This document shows, in pieces, positions 4,531-22,470 of a DNA stretch of 64,000 nt; position 1 is the stretch's first letter, and every line of letters begins with the position of its first letter. The notes under the pieces are model-generated. The model searched no databases and was not told the origin of the DNA. It saw nothing but the letters and a program-made list of their open reading frames with translations. Made by a program: the position numbers and the translations under genes. This DNA is from Peptococcaceae bacterium (GTDB lineage: Bacteria; Bacillota; Peptococcia; Peptococcales; Peptococcaceae). The stretch covers positions 1-64,000 of the forward strand of contig JAUNGU010000001.1 of NCBI GenBank assembly GCA_030524315.1, written 5' to 3'.

Positions 4531-4780
4531 TCGGTTAGTAAATCAAAAAAATGAGCATTTTCTTTCGGTATTGGCCACCTAGCCGGGTTGGGGTTTCGCT
4601 GCACAACCCCTCTCGTGGGCTCCACATGGCAAGGCATCCCGGCGCGCTACCATGCTTCATTGCTTGCGTCAGCACTCGTTGTTGCTGACGGACGACGATA
4701 ATCGTTCATCATATGTTCATTGTACCTGGGCTGGTTACAAAAAGCAAGCGAAGAATCGGTGCCGGCCAACTGCCGCGTTA
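4531..4780. other. Non-coding stretch rich in inverted repeats
   Basis: No credible gene lies here. The stretch 4570-4700 holds nested inverted repeats: GCCGGG/CCCGGC enclosing GGGGTT/AACCCC and GTGG/CCAC, then GTCAGCA/TGCTGAC. That is compatible with a structured RNA on either strand. I could not match it to 5S, 6S, SRP, RNase P or tmRNA from memory. Confidence 0.35.
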
Positions 4781-19934: not shown

Positions 19935-20822
19935 ATGCACGATATTTGGAACCCCTGGCACGGCTGTGTCAAAAAAAGCGAGGGCTGCGACCATTGCTAC
20001 ATGTATTTCCTCGATCGCAAGCGCGGCAAAAACGGCGCCGATATTTATCGCACCGACAAGGGCTTCACCTATCCTCTGGCGCGCGACCAGCAGGGCCGCT
20101 ACAAAATCCAGAGCGGCGAAATGATCCGCGTCTGCATGACCTCCGATTTCTTCCTCGAGGCGGCCGACGCCTGGCGCGACGAGGCATGGTCGATTATGCG
20201 GGCGCGCAGCGACGTCATCTTCATGCTCCTGACCAAGCGGCCGGAGCGGGTGGCTGAGCATCTGCCGCGCGACTGGGGTGAGGGTTGGGAGAACATTTTC
20301 TTCAACGTCACCTGCGAAAATCAGCGCCGCGCCGATGAGCGCCTGCCGCTGTTGCTCGAGCTGCCCTTCAAGCACAAGGGCTTCATGGCGGCGCCCTTCA
20401 TTGGGCCGGTCTCGGCAGCAGCGTATCTCGCCACAGGCCAAATCGAGCAGGTCATCTGCGGCGGCGAAAATTACGACGGCGCCCGGCCCTGCCATTTTGA
20501 ATGGGTGCAGGCACTGCGCCAGGAGTGCGTGCAGACAGGCACGCGTTTTTGCTTCATCGAGACAGGCACGCGCTTTGTCAAGGACGGGCGCGGCTACCAT
20601 CTACCCAACAAGCGCCTGCAAAGCGAGATGGCGTGGCGGGCGCAGATGGACGTGGTCGGGCGGCCGATTCACTACGACCTGCGCGATCCTCTGGGCTGGC
20701 CCGTCGCCGAGGCGGACCGCTACCAGCCCCACTTTGGCCCCGCGTGCACGCATTGCGCGAGCAGGCTCATTTGCAACGGTTGTAGCGGCTGCAAGCAGTG
20801 CCTGTTTGAAAAAGAAAAATGA
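19935..20822 (+). CDS. DUF5131 / phage Gp37-Gp68-like protein
   Basis: This 295-aa protein matches the Gp37/Gp68 family, common in phages and bacterial chromosomes and distantly similar to radical-SAM-type TIM barrels. It has the N-terminal WNPWHGC and CVKKSEGCDHCYM cysteine cluster, and FLLTKRPER-, GGENYDG- and QTGTRFCFIETG-like core segments. A C-terminal Cys-rich tail (CTHC...CNGCSGCKQC) could bind a second metal centre. AAAGGAGGG precedes the ATG. Reaction unknown. Confidence 0.85.
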   Translation: MHDIWNPWHGCVKKSEGCDHCYMYFLDRKRGKNGADIYRTDKGFTYPLARDQQGRYKIQSGEMIRVCMTSDFFLEAADAWRDEAWSIMRARSDVIFMLLTKRPERVAEHLPRDWGEGWENIFFNVTCENQRRADERLPLLLELPFKHKGFMAAPFIGPVSAAAYLATGQIEQVICGGENYDGARPCHFEWVQALRQECVQTGTRFCFIETGTRFVKDGRGYHLPNKRLQSEMAWRAQMDVVGRPIHYDLRDPLGWPVAEADRYQPHFGPACTHCASRLICNGCSGCKQCLFEKEK

Positions 20823-20828
20823 GCATAT

Positions 20829-20876
20829 GAAAACGGCCCCGTCGGAGAAACCGTCATCTCCGGCAGGGCCGTTTTC
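20829..20876. terminator. Bidirectional terminator after DUF5131
   Basis: GAAAACGGCCC/GGGCCGTTTTC (20829-20839, 20866-20876) with an inner CGGAGA/TCTCCG stem gives a short T-run on both strands. It would end the DUF5131 transcript and the convergent small RNA candidate. Confidence 0.75.
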
Positions 20877-21003
20877 AGTTAGCTGTGGTGTAAATAAGAA
20901 AGGAATGATGTGCTGCCGTCAAGGGAAGGGAGACGGCAGCAGAAAATGAAAAGAACGAAAAATCAACAGGGGGAGAAAGGAGAATAAAACCCCCTTGCTG
21001 GTG
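20829..21003 (-). ncRNA. Candidate small RNA B with C-rich loops
   Basis: On the minus strand an extended -10, TGCTATACT (21017-21009), predicts a start near 21003 and a transcript of about 170 nt ending in the hairpin at 20876-20829. In order it folds into AGGGGG/CCCCCT (20990-20995 with 20968-20973) whose loop reads TTCTCCTTTCT, complementary to ribosome-binding sites; and a perfect 10-bp hairpin (20932-20941 with 20911-20920) with loop TCCCTTCCCTT; then the terminator. C/U-rich loops that base-pair with Shine-Dalgarno sequences are a known trait of Gram-positive small RNAs such as the Staphylococcus Rsa family. Expression is untested. Confidence 0.55.
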
Positions 21004-21107
21004 ATTTAAGTATAGCAGATTTTTGCAGTCAGAATATTTATAAAATGTAACAAATTTCCGAAAAATTGAAAAATGAACACGAGCCGTCCCAGTGTTGAAA
21101 ATTTTGG

Positions 21108-21273
21108 GCACAAAAATAGCGCCGTCTGTGGTCGGCGCTATTTTCGTAATGTCTTGTACAAGTCGGCCGTCGACGAGAAAAAAGGGAGAGAAAAAACGTG
21201 ACGGCCAATTAATGACGGTTTTGGCAGTTGAGGTGATGAAAAGGGGGGAGAAAATCATTTCCCTCAACTGTTG
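21108..21273 (-). ncRNA. Candidate small RNA A with C-rich loops
   Basis: On the minus strand the extended -10 TGCTATAAT (21287-21279) predicts a start near 21272. The 5' end then forms CAGTTGAGG/CCTCAACTG (21262-21270 with 21225-21233) with a loop containing TTCTCCCCCC; a second stem GGCCGTC/GACGGCC (21200-21206 with 21165-21171) has a pyrimidine loop with CTCTCCC; and a perfect terminator AAAATAGCGCCG/CGGCGCTATTTT (21133-21144 with 21113-21124) ends in TTTTT. About 160 nt long. The first loop is perfectly complementary over 9 bases to the nuoH ribosome-binding region (53874-53882). Expression is untested. Confidence 0.6.
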
Positions 21274-21351
21274 AACACATTATAGCATGGGATCTGACAG
21301 AAGTTGTCAGGAAAATGTGTGGATTTGGCGCATAAAATGTGAAGATGCGCG

Positions 21352-22470
21352 CTAGGCCTCATCCTCGGCCACTAGGTGCGCGTAGCAGCTGGCAATGTCC
21401 TTGAAATCGAGGCTCAGTACGCCAGCCTTGATGAGGGGATTGCTCGAGGCGGCGTTGGCGCTGATTTCCAGACGGTGGGCGGGAATCGGCTCGATTTCGC
21501 CGATCAGGGCCCAGAGAAAATCCTCCAGGGATTCGAGGCGACTGAAATAGAGGCTCTGCAAAATCACGTCGCTCACCAAAGGCGCCCGCTCCATGAGCAT
21601 CGCCACCACCGGCGGGATGATGAGCCCGTAGGCCTGGCCCAGTCGCAGATGCGAGGCGTAGGTCAGAGGCGAGGCCAGGGCTTCGAGCATGTTTGCGCCC
21701 GACAGCGCAATGGCCAGCCCGGCCTGGTGGGAAGCGAGCATGAATTGCTCGCGGTCCTCGAGGGTGAAGCCCTTGTCGGCGTTGAGCACGGTGCCTGCCA
21801 AATCACTGATCGTCCCCAGGGCGGCAATGGCGATGGCGTCGCTGATGGAGTTGGCCGCCTCAGAGGTGATGGCCTCGACGGCGCGGCCCAGGGATTTGAT
21901 GTAGTTGTTGACGACGGTGGCATCGTCCATAAACTGCACGTAGGCGGGATCGAGAATGGCCAGCTGTGGTGCCGCCAAGGGATTGCGCACCAGCGTTAGC
22001 CGCTCCAGCCCCTGCTGGGCGACGTGGATTTCCGGCGTGGCTTCGGTGCCGCTGCCCGGCGAGGTCGGAATGCAGACCACCGGCAGGGGCGTGATGTCCT
22101 GGGCGTAGAGGGTCGCCTCCTTGATGTCCTGGGCTGCCAACAGGGCGATGGCCTTGCCAGCCTCCAGCGTCGCGTCGCAGCCGACGGCGATGACGAAATC
22201 GGCGCCCACCTCGCGTGCCAGCGCTGCGCCTGCCTCGAGATTGGCGATGGTCGGCGCAATCTTGCGCGTGTGCAAATAGAGGGTGCGGCGCAAGCCCTTG
22301 TATTCCAAGCAGAAGAGGGTCTCCTGCTTGGCCGGATGGGCGTCGTCCATGCCTGCGTCGATGACCACCAGCGCGTGCCCCCCAAGCGCGGCGATGCGAT
22401 CGGCGTTGTCGGCCAAGGCGTCTTTTTTCATAATGACGTGGGTTGGAAATTCATAATCTAAAAGCAACAA
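21352..22470 (-). CDS. Iron-alcohol-dehydrogenase-fold protein lacking metal ligands
   Basis: This 372-aa protein aligns along its length with group III Fe-dependent alcohol dehydrogenases: an N-terminal dinucleotide domain with PTSPGSGTEATPE (family TTxGTGSE) and a helical C-terminal domain. The four metal ligands of the family (D..4..H and H..14..H) appear replaced: KSLGRAVEA has Lys192/Arg196, and Ser near 266 and Tyr near 280 occupy the last two sites with the same spacing. The GGGS loop is VGCD. It probably is not a metal-dependent dehydrogenase. TTG start with GGGAGG 5 bases upstream. Role unknown. Confidence 0.8.
   Translation of the reverse strand: MLLLDYEFPTHVIMKKDALADNADRIAALGGHALVVIDAGMDDAHPAKQETLFCLEYKGLRRTLYLHTRKIAPTIANLEAGAALAREVGADFVIAVGCDATLEAGKAIALLAAQDIKEATLYAQDITPLPVVCIPTSPGSGTEATPEIHVAQQGLERLTLVRNPLAAPQLAILDPAYVQFMDDATVVNNYIKSLGRAVEAITSEAANSISDAIAIAALGTISDLAGTVLNADKGFTLEDREQFMLASHQAGLAIALSGANMLEALASPLTYASHLRLGQAYGLIIPPVVAMLMERAPLVSDVILQSLYFSRLESLEDFLWALIGEIEPIPAHRLEISANAASSNPLIKAGVLSLDFKDIASCYAHLVAEDEA

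Follow-up and report, generated by a model that had tools for sequence, protein, structure and literature searches.

We confirm that the minus strand at positions 20829-21290 of the window (the whole stretch of 64,000 nucleotides analysed here) carries a real feature composed of tandem hairpins with C/U-rich loops. Its probable explanation, in our view, is a pair of independently promoted, lineage-specific, trans-acting small RNAs (sRNAs) arranged in tandem, whose loops would most likely pair with Shine-Dalgarno (SD) regions and block ribosome entry without Hfq. The initial annotation had described a gap of about 530 bp without genes, holding two consecutive minus-strand units, each with an extended -10, C/U-rich hairpin loops and a terminator. 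The gap measures 529 bp, between a plus-strand gene ending at 20822 and a minus-strand gene at 21352, and both the anatomy of the two units and the statistics given below bear the description out. In the following list of features the promoter elements and the palindrome are read from the sequence, and the hairpins and terminators come from predicted folds:

19935-20822, plus strand: flanking convergent gene for a DUF5131 protein (domain assignment).
20829-20880, minus strand: terminator of unit 2, 14 bp plus 6 inner bp (also a self-complementary match in blastn).
20829-21002, minus strand: predicted sRNA 2, about 172 nt, start at about 21002 (ends inferred).
20911-20941, minus strand: hairpin 2 of unit 2, perfect 10-bp stem, loop UCCCUUCCCUU.
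20964-21000, minus strand: hairpin 1 of unit 2, 5+5 bp with one bulge, loop UUUUAUUCUCCUUUCU.
21009-21017, minus strand: extended -10 of unit 2, TGCTATACT.
21106-21272, minus strand: predicted sRNA 1, about 167 nt, start at about 21272 (both ends placed by reference to the -10 and the terminator).
21108-21149, minus strand: terminator of unit 1, 16-bp stem of an A-tract and a U-tract.
21163-21208, minus strand: hairpin 2 of unit 1, 9+3 bp with one bulge, loop UUUUUUCUCUCCCUUUUUUCUC.
21225-21270, minus strand: hairpin 1 of unit 1, perfect 9-bp outer stem plus 4 inner bp, loop UUUUCUCCCCCCUUUUC.
21279-21287, minus strand: extended -10 of unit 1, TGCTATAAT.
21294-21310, minus strand: perfect 17-nt palindrome (6+5+6), CTGACA-N5-TGTCAG.
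21352-22470, minus strand: iron-containing alcohol dehydrogenase gene, upstream of unit 1 on the same strand (clear Pfam match).

Both units run in the same order, from an extended -10 through a first and a second hairpin to a terminator. Each of the four loops is a run of pyrimidines with a CUCC or CCC core, and in hairpin 1 of unit 2 the loop UUUUAUUCUCCUUUCU is followed by CCCCC inside the stem. Hairpin 1 of each unit opens at the predicted +1/+2, which would shield the 5' end of the RNA. No -35 element is recognisable at either unit, and a strict-rule promoter scan returned no two-hexamer promoter; the palindrome CTGACA-N5-TGTCAG, which occurs nowhere else in the 1.12 Mb of this genome, spans roughly -38 to -22 relative to promoter 1, overlapping its -35 region, and could possibly serve as an operator. 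Both terminators look bidirectional, since their U-tracts pair with A-tracts; that of unit 2 has a short U-tract (UUUUC) and probably serves the convergent DUF5131 gene as well. The two units are not significantly similar in sequence, their local alignment score of 20 being attained by 40 of 300 shuffles, and a MAFFT alignment of one with the other is structurally not meaningful. That the same architecture recurs without significant sequence similarity suggests selection on the design.

Several measures set the locus apart from chance: firstly, the minus strand folds with z-scores of -6.87 (unit 1) and -8.41 (unit 2) against dinucleotide shuffles, none of which was as stable, with much of the score in both units contributed by the terminators; secondly, a descriptor for C/U-loop hairpins (a C/U loop closed by a stem of at least 7 bp) detects three of them in the gap, all on one strand, compared with none in 954, one in 46 and two in 0 of 1000 dinucleotide shuffles of the gap; thirdly, the 72 hairpins that this descriptor finds on both strands of 1.12 Mb of the genome are mostly singletons, and among the top matches a cluster of several occurs at this locus alone. 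Likewise, nowhere else in the 1.12 Mb do two copies of TG.TATA[AC]T fall within 400 nt on the same strand. The pattern TTTYYYYCCCYYTTTT has two matches in the whole genome, at loops 1 and 2 of the locus, from which it was derived and of which it is therefore not independent. A 130-amino-acid open reading frame on the minus strand (20875-21267) was rejected as a coding alternative: its G+C content is flat across the codon positions (0.43/0.41/0.42, against about 0.6/0.45/0.79 in neighbouring genes), and it has no match in Pfam.

In the explanation that we favour, each RNA would be made from its own promoter and would fold into a rigid array, with one hairpin at the 5' end, another behind it and the terminator last, leaving unpaired C/U tracts in two loops. 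These tracts would act as seeds against the G-rich SD or start regions of mRNAs, and the pairing would block translation initiation, without Hfq and possibly with the aid of KhpA/KhpB. Hfq was not found in this genome (87% complete) nor in 11 of the 12 other genomes of the family, and is present in all seven genomes searched from the order outside the family, an apparent loss at the level of the family. The genome does carry genes for KhpA and a KhpB-like protein. Base-pairing sRNAs with C-rich loops that work without Hfq are well known, so a genome in which Hfq was not found is a fitting setting for such an sRNA pair.

In support of this reading, the same design has been proven experimentally in LhrC, AbcR1/2 and sX13. 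LhrC1-5 of Listeria monocytogenes are multicopy sRNAs that pair with target mRNAs through redundant CU-rich (UCCC) loop sites, Hfq not being needed for lapB (PMC4132741). The locus described here resembles them in its redundant CU-rich sites in loops; the LhrC RNAs, however, are about 111-114 nt long and near-identical, and carry one of their sites in a single-stranded stretch and another in the loop of the terminator, whereas our two units are dissimilar. In the alphaproteobacterial AbcR1 and AbcR2, tandem sRNAs of one intergenic region, CUCCUCCC in the 5' hairpin loop and UUCCCCUC between the stems pair with mRNA start regions (PMC8844928). Here too there are two tandem units with C/U motifs, which may be of the anti-SD type, but the AbcR RNAs are about 114-121 nt long, bind Hfq, belong to a different phylum and carry their second motif between stems rather than in a loop; they are also homologous tandem copies, whereas the units here are tandem and not homologous. 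sX13 of Xanthomonas has three stable stems with apical C-rich loops and represses, independently of Hfq, mRNAs with G-rich motifs near their start codons (PMC3771888); it differs in being a single proteobacterial gene, at the polA locus, with CCCC/CCCCC loops. The actinobacterial 6C RNA (B11 in mycobacteria) is structured, has two C-rich loops and targets mRNAs by loop pairing (PMC12395582), but its working C-rich loop is in the terminator, and 6C is not among the Rfam matches here up to E 10. NgncR_162 and NgncR_163 of Neisseria are adjacent siblings with three stem-loops each, of which loop 2 blocks the ribosome-binding site (PMC9973317); they are 78% identical and confined to Neisseria, whereas our units have no significant sequence in common. 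From tandem sibling sRNAs, then, the pair differs solely in sharing an architecture and no significant sequence. The pair is probably another case of the known C-rich-loop sRNA design, and matches none of the named families.

How well the loops match ribosome-binding sites was assessed against 719 simply called genes, whose starts were partly chosen by their SD sequence and give the start-region consensus AAGGAGG. All four loops had initially been described as complementary to ribosome-binding sites. This holds as regards composition, in that pairing of the loops with start regions is favoured by about 2 kcal/mol over pairing with shuffled versions of those regions. It does not hold in the particulars: CCUCC is absent from all four loops; not all of them match AAGGAGG, the nearest to its full complement being loop 3 (UUCUCCUUU); and composition-matched shuffled C/U loops pair with start regions as well as or better than the real ones. 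Nor did any specific mRNA emerge as a significant target among the 719 self-called starts, the best energies being unexceptional. Genes for an FeFe hydrogenase, an NADH-quinone oxidoreductase subunit D-like protein and a PadR regulator rank near the top of the predictions, none clearly above shuffled loops; the pairing energy of loop 4 with the PadR gene, for example, was reached by 4 of 60 shuffles. The C/U composition of the loops thus suits purine-rich start regions, but there is no evidence that any loop is tailored to the SD core or to one particular mRNA. In the genomes of relatives, several matches to TTTYYYYCCCYYTTTT are, by inspection, placed antisense to ribosome-binding sites, CAT immediately preceding the motif on its 5' side, which shows that such tracts can match strong ribosome-binding sites in this group.

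If composition matters more than exact sequence, two sequence-unrelated, identically built RNAs with four C/U loops may not be regulators of specific mRNAs: they could be broad dampers of translation initiation at many purine-rich start sites, or a decoy that draws off a protein with affinity for C/U, KhpA/KhpB for example. We hold this to be unlikely. Rather unlikely, too, is the decoy in its strict form, in which the C/U tracts on the hairpins would be binding sites that sequester an RNA-binding protein, for instance KhpA/KhpB, a cold-shock protein or ribosomal protein S1, as CsrB and CrcZ sequester their proteins. The equal pairing of shuffled loops with mRNAs speaks for it, the loops being set apart by composition and not by exact sequence, as do the display of four similar sites on hairpins and the presence of KH proteins in the genome; against it, the same design acts by base pairing elsewhere in bacteria, and to our knowledge no protein of the clade binds such C/U loops.

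The region might instead be the 3' untranslated region of the alcohol dehydrogenase mRNA with an array of terminators, containing no independent sRNA or one processed from the mRNA. The dehydrogenase gene does directly precede the locus on this strand, and no strong terminator separates it from unit 1. However, an extended -10 stands at the right distance before both 5' hairpins, as a pair unique in 1.12 Mb; a full terminator precedes unit 2; and termination does not need extra C/U hairpins. We regard this reading as rather unlikely, and still prefer that of a two-promoter sRNA pair.

The family contains no orthologue of either neighbouring gene, so that synteny is of no help in tracing the two units. 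The DUF5131 gene (19935-20822), not found in the relatives of this organism within the family, has copies about 65-70% identical in many metagenome-assembled genomes of gut Clostridia and in a few records labelled as other phyla, and looks horizontally mobile. The best relative of the alcohol dehydrogenase in the 60 genomes searched is 29% identical, although its Pfam assignment is clear.

Searches for the units themselves gave a similar picture. Rfam scans at gathering and at relaxed thresholds returned no credible family for either unit, in keeping with the initial view that neither is a named family. The best structurally sensible weak match of unit 1, to ar15 (AbcR, RF02345), scored 21.5 bits (E 0.053), below the gathering threshold of 40, and LhrC matched neither unit. 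Elsewhere in the window, the same kind of scan placed a drum RNA (RF02958), a structured RNA family, at 4550-4665 on the minus strand (79.9 bits). No credible homologue was found by blastn of the locus against 60 genomes, nor by single-sequence covariance models of the two units (R1 and R2) in 150 relatives and 398 genomes of the phylum; these roughly 500 genomes all come from outside the genus, a distance at which such models are weak, so that a lack of matches does not prove a lack of homologues. The best covariance-model matches were inspected and rejected as coding DNA, terminators or leader hairpins. One of them, in another family of the phylum (L310:1501-1598), is a lone hairpin, GCUGACGUC-UCCCUUCACUU-GGCGUCAGC, upstream of a different gene, with an E-value of about 0.001 over 398 genomes, as expected by chance. 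By eye it resembles hairpin 2 of unit 2 at 26 of 29 positions, a resemblance that is probably fortuitous. No copy of either unit was present at 80 DUF5131 loci or in phage and plasmid records.

This lack of detectable conservation, in searches of about 500 genomes from outside the genus, together with the lack of a significant target, is what could be said for non-functional intergenic sequence, that is, terminators with low-complexity pyrimidine tracts; yet such clusters are absent both from shuffles and from the genomic background, and we regard that reading as improbable. Finally, a CsrB-like sponge on the plus strand, which folds nearly as well and has GGA/AGGGA in its loops, is scarcely credible and was rejected: CsrA was not found in this genome (87% complete) or in 10 of the 12 other family genomes, and the recognised promoters point the opposite way.

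The locus at 20829-21290 may thus be regarded as a well-formed prediction of an sRNA pair of known design, one in which hairpins with C/U loops are used by other bacteria to block protein synthesis. That no relative was found suggests that such sRNAs may arise quickly in individual lineages, the design being kept and the sequence left free. If transcribed, the two units would be cases of C-rich-loop sRNAs in a family with an apparent loss of Hfq. The locus, simple and of two genes, would then be a convenient place to learn how RNAs that act by base pairing function in this family, and whether they are assisted by KH proteins.
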